DNA of 64,000 nt from Roseburia sp. AM59-24XD. GTDB taxonomy: Bacteria > Bacillota > Clostridia > Lachnospirales > Lachnospiraceae. Positions 53,569 through 62,374 of this stretch are shown one piece after another (the stretch's first letter is position 1; each line of letters starts with the position of its first letter). Position numbers and translations under genes: made by a program. The stretch is from NCBI RefSeq assembly GCF_003478445.1, contig NZ_QUET01000005.1:62001-126000 (forward strand), in the 5' to 3' direction. The notes below the pieces were generated by a model. That model had not been told where the DNA came from and did no database searches. It worked only from the letters and a program-made list of their open reading frames with translations.

Positions 53569-54593
53569 ATGAAGACAGCAGATTTTGATTATGACCTCCC
53601 TCAGGAGCTGATCGCGCAGGATCCACTGGAGCAGAGAGATTCCTCCAGACTTCTGATCCTCGATAAGGAGACCGGGGAGAGGACACACAAGATCTTTCAT
53701 GATATTATCGATTATCTTCACGAGGGAGACTGCCTTGTGATCAACAATACTAAGGTCATCCCGGCTCGTCTGATCGGAGAGCGTGAGGGGACCGGCGGCA
53801 AGGTCGAGGTTCTGCTTTTGAAGCGCAGATCGGACAACGTCTGGGAGACACTGGTAAAGCCCGGTAAGAAGGCAAGACCGGGGATGCGTTTATCCTTCGG
53901 CGGCGGACTTTTGCACGCCGAGGTGCAGGAGGTTGTGGACGAGGGCAACCGTCTGATCCGGTTTGAGTATGAGGCATTTTTGAGGAAATCCTCGATCAGC
54001 TCGGACAGATGCCGCTGCCTCCGTATATCACGCATCAGCTCAAGGATAAGAACCGTTATCAGACGGTATATGCCAAGTACGAGGGATCGGCGGCTGCACC
54101 GACGGCAGGTCTTCATTTTACGGAGGAGCTGCTTGAGCAGATTCAGGCAAAGGGGGTTAAGATTGCCAGAGTCACGCTTCATGTCGGACTTGGAACCTTT
54201 CGACCGGTCAAGGTGGAGGATGTGACCGAACATCATATGCACACGGAGTTTTATCATGTGTCTGAGGAAGCGGCGGACATCATTAATGAGACGAAGAAGC
54301 AGGGTGGCAGAGTGATCTGTGTCGGCACGACAAGCTGCCGTACGATTGAGTCAGCTGCGGATGATCAGGGAATCGTGCATGCCACAGAGGGGGATACGGA
54401 TATTTTCATTTATCCGGGATATCAGTTTAAGGTATTGGACTGTCTGATCACGAACTTTCATCTGCCGGAGTCAACGCTTCTGATGCTGGTTTCCGCACTG
54501 GCAGGCAAGGAAAATATAATGGCAGCTTACAGGGAAGCCGTAGAGATGAGATATCGCTTCTTTTCCTTTGGAGATGCCATGTTCATAAAGTAA
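53569..54593 (+). CDS. queA: S-adenosylmethionine:tRNA ribosyltransferase-isomerase (one apparent frameshift)
   Basis: Transfers the ribosyl part of SAM to preQ1 in tRNA, forming epoxyqueuosine. [20 protein letters not shown] is the canonical start. The frame breaks at 53971-53976 (GAGG-CATT where GAG-GGC-ATT is expected, one G lost). After correction, [19 protein letters not shown] leads to [25 protein letters not shown] and [18 protein letters not shown], all diagnostic, ending at 54593 with a total of 341 residues, the exact family size. The ribosome binding site GGAAAGGAAG precedes ATG 53569. Confidence 0.94.
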
Positions 54594-55694: not shown

Positions 55695-56465
55695 CTAGGA
55701 CAGCTCCGCAATCCGGGAGACACCGACATAGATATCGCTGATGCGGTACCAGGTCGGATAGTCGACAACACCGGTCTGTGGCAGATGAAAGACCTTCTGG
55801 AAGATTTTTACGGCATTGGCGGTATCCTCGCCGTAAACACCGTCCGCAGCGATCTTCGGGATCAGCGGATAGCCTTTGGAAATGGTGTTTAACTGATTCT
55901 GGAGCTGGCGCACCTTCTCACCGGTTGAGCCGATCGTCAGATCGTAGCCCGGCCATGAGGCAGGAATTCCGGAAATTTCCTCTGACGAATTGATAAAGAC
56001 TGAATCTCCATAGAAGCGCCGCAGGATCTCGATCGCCGAATAACCCTGATCTCCCAGTGTTTTGGATTCCCACTGGCGCATCCAGCGCGGACAGGAAACG
56101 CGTTTTCCGTCGCAATATTGCGTGAAAAGAGGTTGCGTAATATTTGGTCTCGATATATAATTGGAAAATATCGTATCAACTGCCTGAGAGATGCTTTCAA
56201 AGATATTGCGGCCGGGTATAAACTTCTGGTCGTAGGCGGTTGAGCTGGTGATCGTGAAATCGTATCCACGATTGCGGTACCATTCCGTATAAACACGGTT
56301 TAATGTTATGGACTGTATTGCCAGAATATTGGCAAGCAGCGTTTCTTCCGGCCAGGTGGCATAGATTTCGCTGGATGCAACATTTTTGATGTAATCCTTA
56401 TATTTTACATAATAGTTCTGCGCTCCGGAGTCGCTTGGCGGACCGTCATGCACGATTACATATTC
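55695..56465 (-). CDS. 3' half of an interrupted SpoIID-like/peptidoglycan-binding gene
   Basis: About 256 codons open from 56465. The nominal first start is GTG at 56453, without a ribosome binding site, and an in-frame TAA lies about 17 codons before it, so this is not a normal gene start. The sequence EYVIVHDGPPSDSG, YIKNVASSEIYATWPEETL and YDFTITSSTAYDQ is SpoIID-like. Residues from GSTGEKVRQLQNQLN to PTWYRI are a PG_binding_1 domain. The missing N-terminal part is found at 61821-62315 in the same orientation. The 5.35-kb element between them (56466-61824) has split one gene. Intact, it would be a wall-binding lytic or sporulation-related protein of about 421 residues. Confidence 0.85.
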   Translation of the reverse strand, partial: EYVIVHDGPPSDSGAQNYYVKYKDYIKNVASSEIYATWPEETLLANILAIQSITLNRVYTEWYRNRGYDFTITSSTAYDQKFIPGRNIFESISQAVDTIFSNYISRPNITQPLFTQYCDGKRVSCPRWMRQWESKTLGDQGYSAIEILRRFYGDSVFINSSEEISGIPASWPGYDLTIGSTGEKVRQLQNQLNTISKGYPLIPKIAADGVYGEDTANAVKIFQKVFHLPQTGVVDYPTWYRISDIYVGVSRIAELS

Positions 56466-56470
56466 GGGGG
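56466..56470 (+). other. Left attachment-site core (junction with 3' gene half)
   Basis: G-run next to ATGGAGTG on the element side and to ATATTC (host codons GAA-TAT on the minus strand) on the host side. With the right core it reconstructs the circle junction CACACCA-gaggggga-TGGAGTG, an imperfect dyad typical of serine recombinase sites. The exact crossover dinucleotide cannot be fixed within the run. Confidence 0.65.
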
Positions 56471-56500
56471 ATGGAGTGCGATAGAGAACGGGGGAATATT

Positions 56501-57775
56501 ATGAAGGAACAATTATCCCGCAGGGAATTAAAATGGTCGAGACTTGACAATACGGCAAATCTGTTTCCGGTGATCGCAACGGAACGGATGACCAATGTCT
56601 ATCGTCTATCTCTGACCTTGGAGGAGAAAGTTGATCCGGTGATTTTACAGCAGGCACTGGACAAGCTCCTGCCTTTGTTTGATCTGATGAATGTTCGGCT
56701 TCGAACCGGGGCATTCTGGTATTATTTTGAGACGAACCGCAAGCCGGCGCCGCGCGTGGAAAAGGAAACCGAGTATCCCTGCCGCAAGATGGAGCCGCAG
56801 TTAAATAACCAGTATCTGTTCCGTGTCAGCTACTATAAAAGACGTATCAATCTTGAGGTGTTTCATGTGCTGGCAGATGGCATGGGCGGCGTGACATTTT
56901 TGAAGGAATTAGCCTGTCAGTATCTGCGTCTGGCGCATCCGGAGCTTTGCAGTCAGGTTGGTGATCATTTGTCGGAGCAGACATCGCTTAACACGGAGGA
57001 CAGTTATCTGAAGAACTTCCGAAAGGGGCAGCCAAAGGGTTACAAGTCCAAGCCGGCATTTCATATGAAGGGTGAGAAGCTTAAGGACGGAGCGTTTGGG
57101 GTGATCCAGGGATATCTTCCTCTTGATCAGGTCAAAAGAGCAGCCCATGAGCGCAGTGTGAGTATCAACGAGTATCTCGCAGGCGTGTATGCCTACAGCA
57201 TCTACAGGGAATGCCTTCACGGCGCGGTGTCAGACAAGCCGCTGGTGCTGTGTGTTCCGGTAAATTTAAGACCATATTTTGAATCGATCACGACGAGAAA
57301 CTTTTTCGGAATGGTTAGTGCAGCCTTCGAGCCGGATCATGAGGACTATTCGAGAGATGAGATCGAGCATATAATTGTGGAGTCATTGCGGGCACAGATC
57401 AACAAGGAGAATCTGGAAAAGCTGTTTTCATATAATGTGTCCAATCAGAAGAATCTCATGTTGCGTGCCGTACCACTTATTCTGAAAAAAATCGTGATGC
57501 AGTGGGTTTATCAGGTCAGCGCCAGAGCAACGACAACGACACTGACCAATTTAGGCGTGCTGAAGGTGGGTGAGGAATACCAGCCGTATATCCGGCATTT
57601 CTCGGCAATCCTGTCCGTTTCGCAGGGCCAGAATACAAAGATGACGATCTGCTCTTACGGGGGAGAGATGGTAATTACCTTCAGTTCGATTCTAAAAGAC
57701 GTCTCTGTACAGAAACGGTTTTTCCGGACATTGGCAGAGGATGGCATACAGCCTGCAGTAGAGAGCAATCTGTAA
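56501..57775 (+). CDS. Condensation-superfamily (alcohol acetyltransferase-like) acyltransferase
   Basis: 424 residues from ATG 56501, preceded by CGGGGGAA. The first gene inside the element, only about 30 bp from its left end. VFHVLADGMGG holds the HxxxDG active-site motif of the CoA-dependent acyltransferase/condensation fold. LVLCVPVNLRPYFES and TRNFFGMVSAAF fit the alcohol acetyltransferase-like group. The N-terminal SRRELKWSRLDNTANLFPVI is typical of the Lachnospiraceae members. It probably acylates a lipid or sugar at the membrane; the substrate is unknown. It forms an operon with the two following genes. Confidence 0.75.
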   Translation: MKEQLSRRELKWSRLDNTANLFPVIATERMTNVYRLSLTLEEKVDPVILQQALDKLLPLFDLMNVRLRTGAFWYYFETNRKPAPRVEKETEYPCRKMEPQLNNQYLFRVSYYKRRINLEVFHVLADGMGGVTFLKELACQYLRLAHPELCSQVGDHLSEQTSLNTEDSYLKNFRKGQPKGYKSKPAFHMKGEKLKDGAFGVIQGYLPLDQVKRAAHERSVSINEYLAGVYAYSIYRECLHGAVSDKPLVLCVPVNLRPYFESITTRNFFGMVSAAFEPDHEDYSRDEIEHIIVESLRAQINKENLEKLFSYNVSNQKNLMLRAVPLILKKIVMQWVYQVSARATTTTLTNLGVLKVGEEYQPYIRHFSAILSVSQGQNTKMTICSYGGEMVITFSSILKDVSVQKRFFRTLAEDGIQPAVESNL

Positions 57776-57791
57776 GAAAAGAGGTGAGACT

Positions 57792-58475
57792 GTGAAGTGT
57801 TGTAAACGATGTGGCATTGAAGTTCTGGGAAATCGGGAGGTGTGCCCACTGTGTAACAGTGTTCTTCATCGGGAAGAGCCGAAGAACGGGGAGCGTGATA
57901 CAGAGGAGGACAGCTTTCCGGATATTGCGGCAAAGCACAGAGTGCGCCGTCAGATTTTCTGGATCGCCACATATATCTGTGTCATTTTGGAAGCATTGTT
58001 TTTGTTCCTGAACAGGCTTTTTTCACCGGGCGTGCGCTGGTCTTTGATCACCGGAGTGGCAGCCGCATATATTTTATCAAGTTTGTGGCAGATGTTAAGC
58101 CGCCGCAAGGGACATATTGTAAAGATTTATTTTCAGGCTGCTGCTGTATTTGTTCTGCTGGCGGGTATTGATTATTCTCTGGGCTTTCAGGGCTGGTCGA
58201 TCAGATACGGACTCCCCTGCGTGCTGCTTGCGCTTGCTGTGATCATTCTGGTCTGCATGATCGTGAATTTCGCCAACTGGCAGAATTATCTGACGATGCA
58301 GATATTTATGGTGCTTTTCAGTCTTGGATATCTGATCTATTCGGTTGTAGGCAGAGGCGGCAATCGGATCCTTTCGTGGATCGTGTTTGGAACGTATCTG
58401 ACACTGTGGGTGATGACGATGATCTTAGGCGGGCGGAAAGCGGAAAATGAGGTTCGCCGCAAATTTCATTTATAA
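57792..58475 (+). CDS. DUF6320 zinc-ribbon membrane protein
   Basis: 227 residues, GTG start at 57792 after AGAGGTGAG. The N-terminal zinc ribbon has two CxxC pairs (CKRC at residues 3-6 and CPLC about 16 residues later). About six membrane helices fill residues 55-215. From memory this is the DUF6320 family that often sits between an acyltransferase and an alpha/beta hydrolase, as here. It may anchor or regulate lipid-modifying partners, an inference from the neighbours alone. Confidence 0.75.
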   Translation: MKCCKRCGIEVLGNREVCPLCNSVLHREEPKNGERDTEEDSFPDIAAKHRVRRQIFWIATYICVILEALFLFLNRLFSPGVRWSLITGVAAAYILSSLWQMLSRRKGHIVKIYFQAAAVFVLLAGIDYSLGFQGWSIRYGLPCVLLALAVIILVCMIVNFANWQNYLTMQIFMVLFSLGYLIYSVVGRGGNRILSWIVFGTYLTLWVMTMILGGRKAENEVRRKFHL

Positions 58476-58490
58476 TACAAAGGAGGATGC

Positions 58491-59378
58491 ATGAGCGTAA
58501 AAGGAAAGATTGTCACTGATATGATTCGTTTCTTTACTTCCCAGAAAATGCTGGGACCAAAGATTCAGGACGGAACACTTCGCAAAAATCTGGTCGAGCC
58601 GCCATGGCACTGCCCGGACGAGTATCTGAATCTGCCTATTCATATGCGACAGTTTGAAATGGAGCTTCTCACGCCGAAGGCTGCCGACAATGGAGAGGTT
58701 GTGCTGCAGCTTCACGGCGGCGGTTATATTGCAAAGATCCGGAATGCGTACCGGGATTTCGCTGTCCGCTACAGTAAGATCGATCAGTACCGCGTGCTGT
58801 CGGTCGATTATCGCGTGGCACCACAGCATCCGTATCCGGCGGCATTTCAGGATGCCATCGAGGCATACCGCTGGCTTTTGTACTCAGGCTTTAGCGGGGA
58901 TCGCATCATTCTCGCCGGAGATTCGGCGGGTGGCGGACTCGTATTGGCACTTGCCATGTATCTGCGCGATCAGAGTATGCCGCTTCCCAAGAAGCTTGTG
59001 ATGATGTCGCCGTGGACAGATCTGACCGCATCGGGGCCTTCCTATCAGGAGAATTATGAGAATGATCCTCTTTTTGGCAATACAAGGGAGAGCATGATCT
59101 ACAACGGCGAATATGCCGGCACACAGGATCCGAAGCTTCCGTATATTTCTCCGTTGTTCGGAGATTTTCACAGGCTTCCGCCAATGCTGTTCCAGGTGGG
59201 AAGTCTGGAAATGCTTCTGAGCGATTCTGTCCTTGCGGCGCAGAAGGCGAAGGAGGCAGGCTGTGATGTGACACTGACTGTGTATCAGGACATGTTTCAT
59301 GTATTCCAGCTCAGCATGGATAAGCTGGCGGAGTCGAGAAAGGCATGGGATGAGGTGGCAGCATTTCTTGGTAAATGA
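58491..59378 (+). CDS. Alpha/beta hydrolase (HSL-type esterase)
   Basis: 295 residues. LQLHGGGYIAKI is the HGGG oxyanion-hole motif and GDSAGGG the nucleophile elbow with catalytic Ser. The late acid and His are in the SLEMLLSDS and FHVFQL segments, the usual hormone-sensitive-lipase layout. No signal peptide is present, so it is cytoplasmic or at the inner membrane face. AAAGGAGG precedes ATG 58491. Last gene of the cargo operon, ending before a strong terminator; it may remove the acyl groups added by the first gene. Confidence 0.9.
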   Translation: MSVKGKIVTDMIRFFTSQKMLGPKIQDGTLRKNLVEPPWHCPDEYLNLPIHMRQFEMELLTPKAADNGEVVLQLHGGGYIAKIRNAYRDFAVRYSKIDQYRVLSVDYRVAPQHPYPAAFQDAIEAYRWLLYSGFSGDRIILAGDSAGGGLVLALAMYLRDQSMPLPKKLVMMSPWTDLTASGPSYQENYENDPLFGNTRESMIYNGEYAGTQDPKLPYISPLFGDFHRLPPMLFQVGSLEMLLSDSVLAAQKAKEAGCDVTLTVYQDMFHVFQLSMDKLAESRKAWDEVAAFLGK

Positions 59379-59412
59379 TGACAGAAATATATAATATGAA
59401 ATTTCAATCAAT

Positions 59413-59446
59413 AGGTATGTCCTAATTTTGGGACATACCTTTTTTG
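59413..59446 (+). terminator. Terminator closing the cargo operon
   Basis: AGGTATGTCC (59413-59422) pairs perfectly with GGACATACCT (59431-59440), followed by five more T. It separates the cargo genes from the recombinase module. Confidence 0.93.
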
Positions 59447-59508
59447 TTCTACACCTGATCTTTGATGGATACAATATAATGATATTGGTAAAAGGATATC
59501 GGATTGGA

Positions 59509-59691
59509 ATGAAAGAAGAGAATCAATATGAGGATGCTGTCTTTGAGGGCAATTTCGAGGGATACGACGTCTATGTCTCTTATGACACAGACGGACTTGA
59601 TATGGAGGAAGCCTATGCGTTGTATCAGGAGGCATGCAATAGCATTTTGTATCGCAGTCTTGCACAGATGGCACAGGAGGGGAAAAAATGA
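59509..59691 (+). CDS. Small acidic protein coupled to the first recombinase (candidate directionality factor)
   Basis: 60 residues from ATG 59509; GGATATCGGATTGG lies upstream as a weak ribosome binding site, and a TATAAT-like box is at 59475-59480. It is acidic (YEDAVFEGNFEGYDVYVSYD), predicted helical in its second half, with no known domain. Its stop overlaps the ATG of the first recombinase (ATGA), so the two are translated together. Small proteins next to serine recombinases often control the direction of recombination; that role is inferred only from position. Confidence 0.65.
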   Translation: MKEENQYEDAVFEGNFEGYDVYVSYDTDGLDMEEAYALYQEACNSILYRSLAQMAQEGKK

Positions 59692-60755
59692 TCCGGTGCG
59701 CCTTATACCTGCGTCTGTCCAGAGAGGATGGCGAAGGAGAGAGTAACAGCATTCAGAGCCAGCGCATGCTGTTATTACAGTATATGAAAGAGCAGGAACA
59801 GATGGAATGTGTCGGTGAGTGGATCGATGACGGTATCAGCGGCAGCCACTACGAACGTCCCGGATTTCAGACAATGATGGGCGCTGCACAGAGAAGAGAA
59901 TTTGACTGTATCCTGTGCAAGGACTTGTCGCGTCTTGGAAGAGAATATATTCAGACAGGCTATTTGCTGCGGGAGATTCTGCCACGGCTGGGAATCCGCC
60001 TGATCGCCGTGGCAGATCATTATGACAGTTACGATGCCGGTTTTATGGAGGATTCCCTGCTGATGCCGGTCATGAGTCTGATGAATGATGCGTATTGCAG
60101 AGATATTTCCAGAAAGGTGCGGTGGCAGCAGCGAACAAAGCGGATGATGGGGGAGTATATCGGTGCATTTGCCTGCTATGGATATCAGAAAAGCAGCGTG
60201 GATGCGCATGTGCTCGTCATTGATCCGGAGGCGGCGAAAATTGTCCGCATCATTTATCTGCTGCGGCTTGGCGGCATGGCGGCAGAAAATATTGCCGGTG
60301 TCCTGAATATGGGACAGATCAAAAGCCCGTATGAATATAAAAAAATGCAGGGAAGTCATTATCATTCCGGGTTTGTTCCGGAAAACAACGGACGGCAGGA
60401 AAAACTCTGGACACCGCAGACCGTGCGCCGGATCCTTTCCAATTCCATGTATACAGGTGTAATGATTCAGGGAAAAGATCAGAAGCTCAGCTACAAGCTT
60501 CAAAAACGCGTTGCACTTCCGAAGGAGAAGTGGATCTGTGTAGATGGTGTGCTCCCGGCAATCATTCCGAAGTGGGTTTGCGAGCGGGTCAGAAAGCTTC
60601 AGACGAAACGGATCCGTTGTCAGAAAGGAAATGTGTTTTGTGTGCCGTTTGCCGGATATGGTCTGAATGCAAAGGAGCAGGAAACGGCACAGAAATGGCT
60701 GCAGCAAAAGATGACACAGCTTTCCTGTGGAATTGCCGATCATGAGCCATGGTGA
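59688..60755 (+). CDS. Serine recombinase, short form (first of two)
   Basis: 355 residues. The resolvase domain (about 1-140) has the catalytic serine in LRLSREDGEGESNSIQSQ and the conserved CKDLSRLGREYIQTGYLL. The recombinase domain (about 155-270) has YGYQKSS and WTPQTVRRILSNSMYTGVM. The zinc-ribbon and C-terminal coiled coil usual in 450-550-residue large serine recombinases are missing: the protein ends soon after the domain. No in-frame continuation is seen in other frames, so it is either a natural short form or a decayed tail. Translation is coupled to the 60-residue gene. Confidence 0.88.
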   Translation: MIRCALYLRLSREDGEGESNSIQSQRMLLLQYMKEQEQMECVGEWIDDGISGSHYERPGFQTMMGAAQRREFDCILCKDLSRLGREYIQTGYLLREILPRLGIRLIAVADHYDSYDAGFMEDSLLMPVMSLMNDAYCRDISRKVRWQQRTKRMMGEYIGAFACYGYQKSSVDAHVLVIDPEAAKIVRIIYLLRLGGMAAENIAGVLNMGQIKSPYEYKKMQGSHYHSGFVPENNGRQEKLWTPQTVRRILSNSMYTGVMIQGKDQKLSYKLQKRVALPKEKWICVDGVLPAIIPKWVCERVRKLQTKRIRCQKGNVFCVPFAGYGLNAKEQETAQKWLQQKMTQLSCGIADHEPW

Positions 60756-60828
60756 AACGGTTGTGGGTGGCTTTGTTTGTAGAGGAAATTCATGTGGTTC
60801 GGCAGGGGGGGAGGGCTGGAGAGGCAAG

Positions 60829-60974
60829 GAAAGTAAATGCAACCCAGCAGGTGGACATGAAAGAATAATAAGTGCAATCTGACAGATGGAACTAATCGGA
60901 AATGAAAGAATAATAAATGTGATCCGACAGACGGAACGGGCTGAGGATAGAATAACAAATAGATCCGGAGTGAT
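60829..60974 (+). repeat. Four degenerate direct repeats between the recombinase genes
   Basis: Units start at 60829, 60859, 60904 and 60946 (spacings 30, 45 and 42 bp). The two best share GAAAGAATAATAA followed by TG, ATC, GACAGA and GGAAC at the same positions. The first unit is shorter, the last lacks its end. They fill the 237-bp gap between the recombinases. They may bind the recombinases or an accessory protein. Confidence 0.65.
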
Positions 60975-60992
60975 AAGAAAGGTGGGGAGAGA

Positions 60993-61841
60993 ATGGAGTA
61001 TCTGGTTGGAATTTACGCCCGCTTGTCCGTAGAGCATGGCACTGCCAAGGACAACAGCATACAGAATCAGATCCGACTGGCGAAGCAATGGCTGGAAGAG
61101 CAGAACGCCAAGCTGGCTCAGAAAAAAATACGGTGCGAAAGCTTGAGTGAAAAACAAAAGGAAGAAGGAATTTGCGTAGCGGATCGTTGCAGACTTCAGG
61201 ATATTTATGTGGACAGCGGTTGCAGTGGAACCACATTTCGCCGCCCGCAGTTTCAGCGGATGCTTGAAGATGCACAGGAGGGGAAGATCAACTGTATTGT
61301 GTGTAAGGATGCTTCCCGGATTGGCAGAGATTATCTGCGAACCGGTGAATATCTTGAGAAAATTTTCCCGCTGATGGGAGTGCGCGTAGTCTGTGTCAGC
61401 GATGGATACGACAGTGGGCGCGAGATGCCGGGAAGCCTCGCCGGTAATCTGAAAAATCTTATGAACGAATGGTATGCAAAGGATATCGGAAGAAGGGTAC
61501 GTCTTGTCAAACAACAGCAGAGAGAGCGTGGATGCTATCTGGGGAGCAGAGCGCCCTATGGCTGGCAGATTATTTACTGCGATGGAAGAAGGGGGCTTGA
61601 AAAGGATCCGCCGGCGTATGAGGTGATCAAGCAGATGGCAGAAAGGCGGCAGCAGGGGATGAGTTATCGGCAGATCGCGGGGTGGCTGGAGCAAAACGGG
61701 GTCAATACACCGGAACATTACCGGAGGACCGGTGAGGTGTATCGGTTTGAGTATGGTGAGAAACAGCGACAGACCTGGGAGGCATCCGGGGTACGCCGTA
61801 TTCTTTTATCACACACCAGAGGGGATTACCACACGACTTAA
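60993..61841 (+). CDS. Serine recombinase, short form (second), running through the element end
   Basis: 282 residues, ATG 60993 after GGTGGGGAG. The resolvase domain carries the catalytic serine in YARLSVEHG and has an insertion of about 30 residues (around 38-70) before IYVDSGCSGTTFRRPQFQRM. CKDASRIGRDYLRTGEYLEKIF is conserved. The recombinase domain begins (APYGWQIIYC) but ends after GVRRILL. The last codons cross the attachment site at 61821-61824. In the excised circle the frame would instead read through the left end and stop after about ten further codons, so its C-terminus depends on whether the element is integrated. Confidence 0.85.
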   Translation: MEYLVGIYARLSVEHGTAKDNSIQNQIRLAKQWLEEQNAKLAQKKIRCESLSEKQKEEGICVADRCRLQDIYVDSGCSGTTFRRPQFQRMLEDAQEGKINCIVCKDASRIGRDYLRTGEYLEKIFPLMGVRVVCVSDGYDSGREMPGSLAGNLKNLMNEWYAKDIGRRVRLVKQQQRERGCYLGSRAPYGWQIIYCDGRRGLEKDPPAYEVIKQMAERRQQGMSYRQIAGWLEQNGVNTPEHYRRTGEVYRFEYGEKQRQTWEASGVRRILLSHTRGDYHTT

Positions 61842-62315
61842 TACGATCTCACCCGTTTCGCTGACATCCTTGACCTCACTCTCCGGAATCTTCGGCGGGT
61901 AATCGCCGTACAAGGTGTGTGGTGGAATTACATAAATCACGCTGTTATCATTCGGCGCCTCAAACTGCGGAATCAGGGAAATATTCTGCAGTGCCGTCTG
62001 CCCTGACAAGATTTCCGCTCCGGAGATCACTGTCGGTTCAAAGCCGGGAGCGGTAATCTTTAAGTTAAATACAGAATAAGGCTGTGCGGCTTCCGGCTCA
62101 AGGCTGTATTCGAGCGGCGGTGCCGGCAGATCAATGGTATCGGTCTGACCATTGGAATCCGTGGAAAGCTCATCAATCACATCCTCCGGTTCATTGCTGT
62201 CCGTAATCTGTACCGTGGCTCCCGACACGGCGCGCGAGCTGATCATCGAACTGACATTTACAAGCAGCCTTCCGGTATCCGGGAGGTCCTGCTGCATGGC
62301 ATATAATTTAGACAT
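61809..62315 (-). CDS. 5' half of the interrupted SpoIID-like/peptidoglycan-binding gene
   Basis: 168 residues as read, of which residues 1-165 (62315 to 61821) belong to the host gene and the last three come from the element. The start ATG at 62315 follows GGAGGAG. Residues about 14-112 form a carboxypeptidase-regulatory-like beta-sandwich (LLVNVSS, ATVQITD, LPAPPLEYSLE, ITAPGFEPTVISG). PPHTLYGDYPPKIPESEV and ETGEIVLSRVVIP follow, a segment which in intact relatives known to me runs directly into the xYVVVHDG of the SpoIID-like region, here found at 56465. No signal peptide is evident. The gene is preceded by a sigma-K-like promoter. Confidence 0.85.
   Translation of the reverse strand: MSKLYAMQQDLPDTGRLLVNVSSMISSRAVSGATVQITDSNEPEDVIDELSTDSNGQTDTIDLPAPPLEYSLEPEAAQPYSVFNLKITAPGFEPTVISGAEILSGQTALQNISLIPQFEAPNDNSVIYVIPPHTLYGDYPPKIPESEVKDVSETGEIVLSRVVIPSGV
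61821..61824 (+). other. Right attachment-site core (junction with 5' gene half)
   Basis: G-run between element sequence ACACACCAGA and host sequence ATTACCACACG. It lies within the last codons of the second recombinase gene. On the minus strand the host frame reads GTG-GTA-ATC-CCC up to this point. Confidence 0.65.
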
Positions 62316-62347: not shown

Positions 62348-62374
62348 TATAGTATGGCGAAAAGAAAGAGAGGT
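62348..62374 (-). promoter_or_regulatory. Sigma-K-like promoter of the interrupted gene
   Basis: On the minus strand AC (62374-62373), 16 bp, then CATACTATA (62356-62348). This matches the Bacillus sigma-K consensus AC-N16-CATANNNTA exactly. Transcription would begin near 62340, about 25 bases before the ATG at 62315. The motif is short, so chance matches are possible, but the position is right. Confidence 0.5.

Follow-up and report, generated by a model that had tools for sequence, protein, structure and literature searches.

The window analysed here is a stretch of 64,000 nucleotides from Roseburia sp. AM59-24XD (Lachnospiraceae; contig NZ_QUET01000005.1, positions 62,001 to 126,000), in which a gene that we assign to sleC is split by an element encoding serine recombinases. 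An earlier reading made from the letters alone, hereafter the sequence-only reading, had described two gene halves in order and in the same orientation, with 5.35 kb containing serine recombinases between them. Both halves lie on the minus strand; the intervening DNA contains five plus-strand genes and a small open reading frame (ORF). The principal features are as follows.

55695..56469 (55695-56465 without the core), minus strand: 3' half of sleC, comprising the shared core, the SpoIID-like and PG_binding_1 parts and the stop (ORF list, Pfam).
56466..56469: left in-register core, GGGG on the plus strand and CCCC in host sense (printed alignments, direct search).
56470..56483: left arm of an attP-like inverted repeat, whose 14-nt arms agree at 10/14 positions in the window.
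59688..60755, plus strand: rec1, a serine recombinase of 355 amino acids (aa) with Resolvase and Recombinase domains (Pfam, alignment).
60993..61841, plus strand: rec2, a short serine recombinase of 282 aa, whose last codons (RGDYHTT) come from the att core and sleC DNA (Pfam, alignment).
61807..61820: right arm of the attP-like inverted repeat, paired with the left arm.
61821..61824: right in-register core, GGGG on the plus strand (printed alignments, direct search).
61821..62315, minus strand: 5' half of sleC, spanning 165 codons and ending at VVIP (ORF list, joined frame, homology to PDB 9h68).
62348..62374, minus strand: sigma-K-like promoter, AC-N16-CATACTATA, upstream of sleC (motif search, with what we take to be the sigma-K consensus).

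In its split form, the 5' half reads VVIP followed by three element codons (SGV) and a stop. When the halves were joined at the C-run, an uninterrupted frame of 421 aa was obtained, reading SRVVIP and then EYVIVHDG, just as the sequence-only reading had proposed (VVIP-EYVIVHDG, about 421 residues). Since the halves share 4 bp in register (CCCC in host sense), the element is 56466-61820, that is 5,355 bp, and the same size is expected for an excised unit. Its G+C content is 49%, as compared with 49% and 52% for the host sequence. Pfam assigned PG_binding_1 (2.2e-14) and SpoIID (1.6e-05) to the 3' half, and the 5' half gave a CarboxypepD_reg match below its cut-off.

We compared this junction with homologues from a family sample of 397 Lachnospiraceae genomes (G001, G010-G405), which was used for the searches of both sleC and SpoIVA. 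Intact homologues bridge the two halves at exactly the predicted point: P0121-P0123, the intact proteins nearest to the window's (421-423 aa, 92-93% identity), have VVIPEYVIVHDG at the junction. Among the matches listed at E<=1e-50, nearly all homologues cross it without a stop, and in 114/120 homologues of a protein listing E directly follows VV(I/V/L)P. Furthermore, the same cassette lies at the same sleC codon in five loci (the window, L136, L137, L001 and L002), and the junction codons are mutually in frame in all five. A last protein search yielded 29 short proteins, 28 of which carry VVIP[SA][GA]V as in the site split here (site A), and the remaining one, P0256, ends in TEW, as in the core of another site (site B, below). 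Chance or assembly error as the origin of the split was ruled out because the same junction recurs in the five loci and in 28/29 short proteins.

The host gene had been described as a SpoIID-like/peptidoglycan-binding gene; the domains were recovered by Pfam, and the mere SpoIID-like label gave way to a closer assignment. A profile of 25 intact homologues matched PDB 9h68, titled 'Spore cortex-lytic enzyme pre-pro-form', over residues 9-419 with E=1.5e-165, and P0121 alone matched it with E=6e-130. With similarity over the full length and with SpoIID-like and peptidoglycan-binding parts, the host gene is by homology an orthologue of sleC, and cortex-lytic activity is predicted for the encoded protein. 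An AlphaFold2 model of P0121 had a mean pLDDT (predicted local distance difference test) of 57, with the central part below 50. The same enzyme name is used for C. difficile CD0551, sleC, in the available text of PMC3789822, which assigns the gene to the sigma-K regulon and describes it, with reference to other work, as essential for germination; sleC is also among the sigma-K targets in the portion available of PMC5025042. Mother-cell expression of the Roseburia gene is presumed by analogy with this C. difficile literature.

We next asked how far sleC goes along with sporulation in the family. A sleC homologue at E<=1e-50 was found in 253/397 genomes and SpoIVA at E<=1e-20 in 256/397; both were present in 248, the homologue only in 5, SpoIVA only in 8 and neither in 136. 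The motif AC-N15-17-CATANNNTA occurred within 120 nt upstream in 24/47 homologues (47 upstream regions, after one duplicate, L010, was dropped); 200 rounds of dinucleotide shuffling gave 0.385 on average and never more than 2. It was present in all six distinct site-A loci having the 5' half (the window, L136, L137, L139, L001 and L002) and absent in 23/47, many site-C loci (see below) among them. The assignment to sleC, the co-occurrence with SpoIVA and the sigma-K-like boxes together support the view that the interrupted gene is a sporulation gene.

The element itself carries, in addition to rec1 and rec2, the following genes.

56501..57775, plus strand: cargo, acyltransferase-like protein, 424 aa (weak PapA_C and WS/DGAT matches).
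57792..58475, plus strand: cargo, DUF6320 protein, 227 aa (Pfam, gene-order comparison).
58491..59378, plus strand: cargo, alpha/beta hydrolase of the hormone-sensitive-lipase type, 295 aa (family matches).
59428..59691, plus strand: small ORF before rec1, 87 aa (60 aa if the start is 59509), a candidate directionality factor by its position.

This order, from the acyltransferase to rec2, is common to the window, L136 (in G295), L137 (G406) and L001 (G001), with gaps of 5.1-5.3 kb between the halves in the site-A loci sharing it. In L002 (G002), five of the six cassette genes were recognised, the small ORF being missing from the recognised set, so that the small ORF was recognised in 4/5 compared site-A loci; it had no match in any protein-family collection searched. 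In G407, the contig ends within the first cargo gene, as judged by eye. A DAGK neighbour is common to the window, L136, L137, L138 and L001, and the first three of these and L001 also have a dUTPase neighbour in common; the stretches retrieved for L002 showed neither gene. PHROGs searches with six element proteins revealed no phage structural or replication genes and gave only integrase, invertase and esterase matches, and the recombinases are the sole mobility genes recognised in the window's element. By this content, the site-A element is a compact non-phage cassette. A scan of 53-64 kb with Rfam gave no match at gathering score.

An inverted repeat with a T-run (59410-59443) lies between the cargo genes and the group of the small ORF, rec1 and rec2, suggesting that the recombinases may be transcribed separately from the cargo. 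In addition, a 40-nt unit occurs in three imperfect copies between rec1 and rec2 (60818-60937), with 65% and 85% identity to the middle copy.

The ends of the element are conserved as well. The core CCCC is present in 5/5 site-A loci, and over these loci the 14-nt element arms agree at 49/70 positions, whereas 2,000 random draws averaged 17.2 and never exceeded 29. On the host side, the arms lack an inverted repeat (agreement of 1-2/14).

Pfam detected Resolvase and Recombinase in both rec1 and rec2, with the Recombinase domain only partial in rec2. The alignments of each showed invariant Ser and Arg positions, which we take to be catalytic. Their best NCBIfam relatives were CcrA/CcrB and XisF, all far below the curated cut-offs; we understand these to be the recombinases of cassette chromosomes and of the heterocyst fdxN element, respectively. 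Note that rec1 (355 aa) and rec2 (282 aa) are short in comparison with the models of these relatives, which span 442-558 positions. A rec2-like match at E<=1e-55 was found in 118/397 Lachnospiraceae genomes. When the contigs of the best 80 of 597 rec2 loci were scanned, a sleC half was found in three, both halves being present in two (L001 and L002). Furthermore, eleven exact size coincidences were seen between the contigs of 26 rec2 proteins and those of 21 split-half proteins.

The end of rec2 lies inside sleC, where the junction read in antisense supplies its last codons. Among the best 47 rec2-family proteins, 14 have HTRGDYH-type tails, 15 have HQRG-type tails and 16 end otherwise, with the tails of P0009 and P0012 resembling the HTRGDYH type. 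Judged from the DNA, the HTRGDYH and HQRG tails are two readings of the same att sequence.

Splitting of sleC is not confined to site A (near residue 165), and was observed also at site B (near residue 226) and site C (near residue 294). For this survey, 44 of the 253 sleC-bearing genomes, chosen for weak, partial or extra matches, were listed again, with G001 and G295 added. Both halves were found in at least 29/253 genomes, namely 3 at site A, 7 at site B and 19 at site C (G141 with a ragged edge); genomes in which only a single half, ending at one of the sites, was seen (G051, G152, G172, G213 and G237) were excluded from the 29. In 16/29, a single contig carried the two halves, at a distance of 2.4 to 24 kb. 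Outside the sample, G002, G406 and G407 (3' half only) are split at site A and G408 at site C. No second homologue at E<=1e-8 was seen in 22/27 re-listed split genomes, if a fragment of 49 residues in G328 is disregarded.

Nine site B and C elements were run through Pfam, and each encodes a serine recombinase (285-587 aa); a zinc ribbon was matched in 7/9, two of those below the cut-off. At site B, the L144 recombinase shares 65% identity with that of L145 and 38% with that of L149, but about 20% with the site C recombinases, as obtained from a mixed alignment of element ORFs used solely for recombinase identities. The site B core ACGGAGTGGTA was found on both sides in L144 and L145 (2/3 loci) and on one side in L149, and the site C core TGACC was exact in 5/9 loci and mismatched in three, while L156 looks by eye as though its core were longer. 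By these comparisons, sites A, B and C carry different cores and different serine recombinases.

Two further observations concern these sites. G003 (L141, L142 and L143) has a site-A 5' half plus two separate pieces ending near site B, which suggests two split sleC paralogues, the pieces being on different contigs. G262 and G408 (L153, L178 and L180) represent different species of the same genus; in each, sleC is interrupted at site C, with gaps of about 2.6 and 4.5 kb; for G113, the genus-level comparison covered one genome only.

The positions of the three sites bear on the idea that the halves function as two separate proteins, in which case split subunits might suffice without excision. 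Site A may lie near the propeptide boundary of SleC, and an in-frame GTG is present near the start of the 3' half. In line with such a division, pro-SleC is described in the available part of PMC3567191 as being activated by propeptide cleavage. Against this, site B falls within the SpoIID match (about residues 185-262), site C separates that match from the peptidoglycan-binding part, and the 3' half begins within antisense cargo sequence, preceded by neither a CATANNNTA box nor a nearby AGGAG/GGAGG-type ribosome site. With the junction codons in frame with each other in all five site-A loci as well, we regard two independent proteins as very unlikely.

Another explanation is that the insertion inactivated sleC in lineages for which the gene has become dispensable, and that its decay is slow. 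Loss of the gene may indeed happen: in G214 (L146, about 1480-2735), a contiguous sleC homologue carries frameshifts, a possible example of real decay or else a sequencing error. The split genes look different. No stop was present in the host parts of 28 split rows, which were drawn from BLAST matches, a source that favours clean sequence. Some matches in the 44 re-listed genomes do contain stops (for instance in G068, G152 and G219); for the subset of loci whose junction sequences were displayed, such stops lay just past the junction. Between the window and G295, the nonsynonymous (dN) and synonymous (dS) divergences of the 3' half were 0.017 and 1.27, indicating strong constraint on the halves; dS was saturated in many other pairs, so that ratios were left unused there. 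The sequence-only reading had held the gene to be preserved on both sides, and the related split loci examined disclosed no decay of either half. SpoIVA was present in all 29 sampled genomes with both halves, in contrast to G214, whose SpoIVA match is weak and doubled. A dead sleC is thus hardly credible to us.

We then constructed a quick tree from 28 split and 33 intact rows (61 host proteins in all), with support values from the Shimodaira-Hasegawa-like approximate likelihood ratio test (SH-aLRT) only. The four states (intact, A, B and C) need at least 17 changes on this tree, and the seven site-A rows all group within a 19-member clade (support 99), whose other 12 members are intact. Two lineages hold split and exactly rejoined sleC at 98-99% identity of the 5' half, the joined form being scarless: split P0241 (52 members) and joined P0121 are identical at 162/165 residues over the 5' half, and split P0243 (5 members) and joined P0123 at 165/167. 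P0121-P0123 have one member sequence each, as compared with 328 in the cluster of the window's rec2. Joined alleles fit both excision and strains lacking the element.

These data also bear on whether the element is an ordinary mobile island using sleC as its attB, excised at a low, unregulated level without sporulation timing, so that cells with a whole sleC are the minority that lost it. The rare and precise joined alleles near the window's type, the interleaving of intact and split genes in the tree, and the varying cargo and span (2.4 to 24 kb) of site B and C elements would all suit such an island. However, the site-A elements retain a single compact set of genes and the same end sequence despite large divergence (L136 versus the window: sleC 3' half 97% and 5' half 87% identical, the three cargo proteins 77-86%, rec1 64%, rec2 61% and the small ORF 45%), and the window's element has no recognised mobility genes besides its recombinases. 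A sporulation gene targeted at three sites by different recombinases, moreover, resembles known developmental elements. We therefore consider the island explanation unlikely.

Taken together, we think it likely that the window carries a skin-type intervening element in sleC that is excised in the mother cell to restore the gene. As in skin-type elements, a presumed mother-cell gene is split with its halves in order and orientation, a recombinase is encoded, a shared core restores the frame, the halves are intact and a near-identical rejoined allele exists. The recombinase genes, the ends suited to precise removal and the other elements at two further sites suggest that sleC is probably stitched together only when spores form. 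Both in the spore line and in vegetative cells, sleC would remain split and unexpressed, with the element passed on as part of the chromosome. By analogy with skin, gin and yin, rec1 and rec2, probably aided by a directionality factor, would act in the sporulating mother cell to recombine the two CCCC cores, releasing a 5.36-kb circle and leaving an uninterrupted sleC behind the sigma-K promoter. The restored gene would be transcribed by sigma-K and SleC made and loaded into the spore, whose own chromosome would keep the element. We infer from this arrangement excision and its timing, its catalysis by these recombinases, its mother-cell site and the dependence of germination on it.

Several observations weigh against such a developmental role. 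A SleB/CwlJ-type Hydrolase_2 protein is also encoded in 15/16 split genomes checked, so that sleC may not be the sole cortex enzyme, and a further sleC homologue, mostly more distant, is present in G033, G173, G234, G324, G358 and G001. Pfam gave no Zn_ribbon_recom match in rec1 or rec2, which without this part could be decaying, and the two diverge faster than the host halves and the three cargo proteins (dN between the window and G295 of 0.31 and 0.32, respectively, versus 0.017 for the 3' half). No sleC half was present in 77 of the best 80 rec2 loci, and rec2-like matches were mostly full-length recombinases of at least 500 aa among the matches listed, indicating that, within a common family, the short forms next to sleC make up a small branch. 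Sigma-like boxes precede the small ORF or rec1 in some site-A loci, and no promoter common to all five was seen there by eye. Finally, one degenerate circle-junction pattern had 0 matches in viral contigs, and the joined alleles may, as noted, stem from strains lacking the element.

A bolder extension appears to us possible but doubtful. Germination competence might, in many gut Lachnospiraceae, be under recurrent, convergent excision control, with the site-A cassette an old, mostly vertically inherited, fixed switch and rec1/rec2 a two-part truncated recombinase whose sleC-encoded C-terminal tail changes on excision. Mother cells failing to excise the element might then yield SleC-less spores, a form of bet-hedging or superdormancy.

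Apart from the element, a gene at 53569-54593 on the plus strand, which from its sequence we take to be queA-like, is read in two overlapping frames of 218 and 194 aa; this copy therefore looks frameshifted, possibly by a sequencing error.

In the family sample from a single gut family, more than one tenth of the sleC-bearing genomes are split, at three sites with different recombinases, and the smallest elements are 2.4-2.6 kb. If our interpretation is true, sleC would be a hotspot for excision-controlled genes, and the germination capacity of commensal gut spores might be set by DNA excision in the mother cell. Annotation may label the split genomes as sleC-deficient though they are probably not, and small recombinase systems would become available for testing. 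The sequence-only reading knew of no described element in this gene; likewise, no intervening element in sleC or in Lachnospiraceae was found in the literature searched, most subscription papers and preprints being outside its reach.

According to the available portions of the papers cited here, developmental splitting has so far been described for sigK, spsM, spoVFB, spoVR, gerE and yabG, mostly by phage-like elements. Like the sleC element, skin in sigK of B. subtilis and C. difficile splits a mother-cell sporulation gene and has a serine recombinase and conserved motifs with inverted-repeat half-sites; its excision yields a circle and restores the gene (PMC5025042, as far as available). Skin is, however, prophage-like with one large serine recombinase, whereas two truncated recombinases and no recognised phage genes are found here; its excision has been demonstrated, while that of the sleC element is deduced from sequence. 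SPbeta in spsM, vfbin in spoVFB and vrin in spoVR likewise interrupt sporulation genes and are excised (accessible text of PMC4191935), but they are phage or phage-like and lie in genes other than sleC. The gin element in gerE of B. cereus ATCC10987 is, like the sleC element, non-phage with several serine recombinases; from what is available of PMC5595907, it has a 9-bp core and sporulation-specific excision, carried out by GirC (58 kDa), one of its three recombinases, with the 42-aa GirX. At 28.6 kb, gin differs from the 5.36-kb sleC element in size, cargo and target gene. Finally, yin in yabG of C. botulinum V73 is also an intervening element in a sigma-K-controlled gene, and in the same germination pathway, YabG being the processor of pre-pro-SleC (PMC10747680, in the part available). 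In that source, yin is prophage-like and described as unique, whereas the sleC elements are widespread, some of them very small, and occupy three sites.

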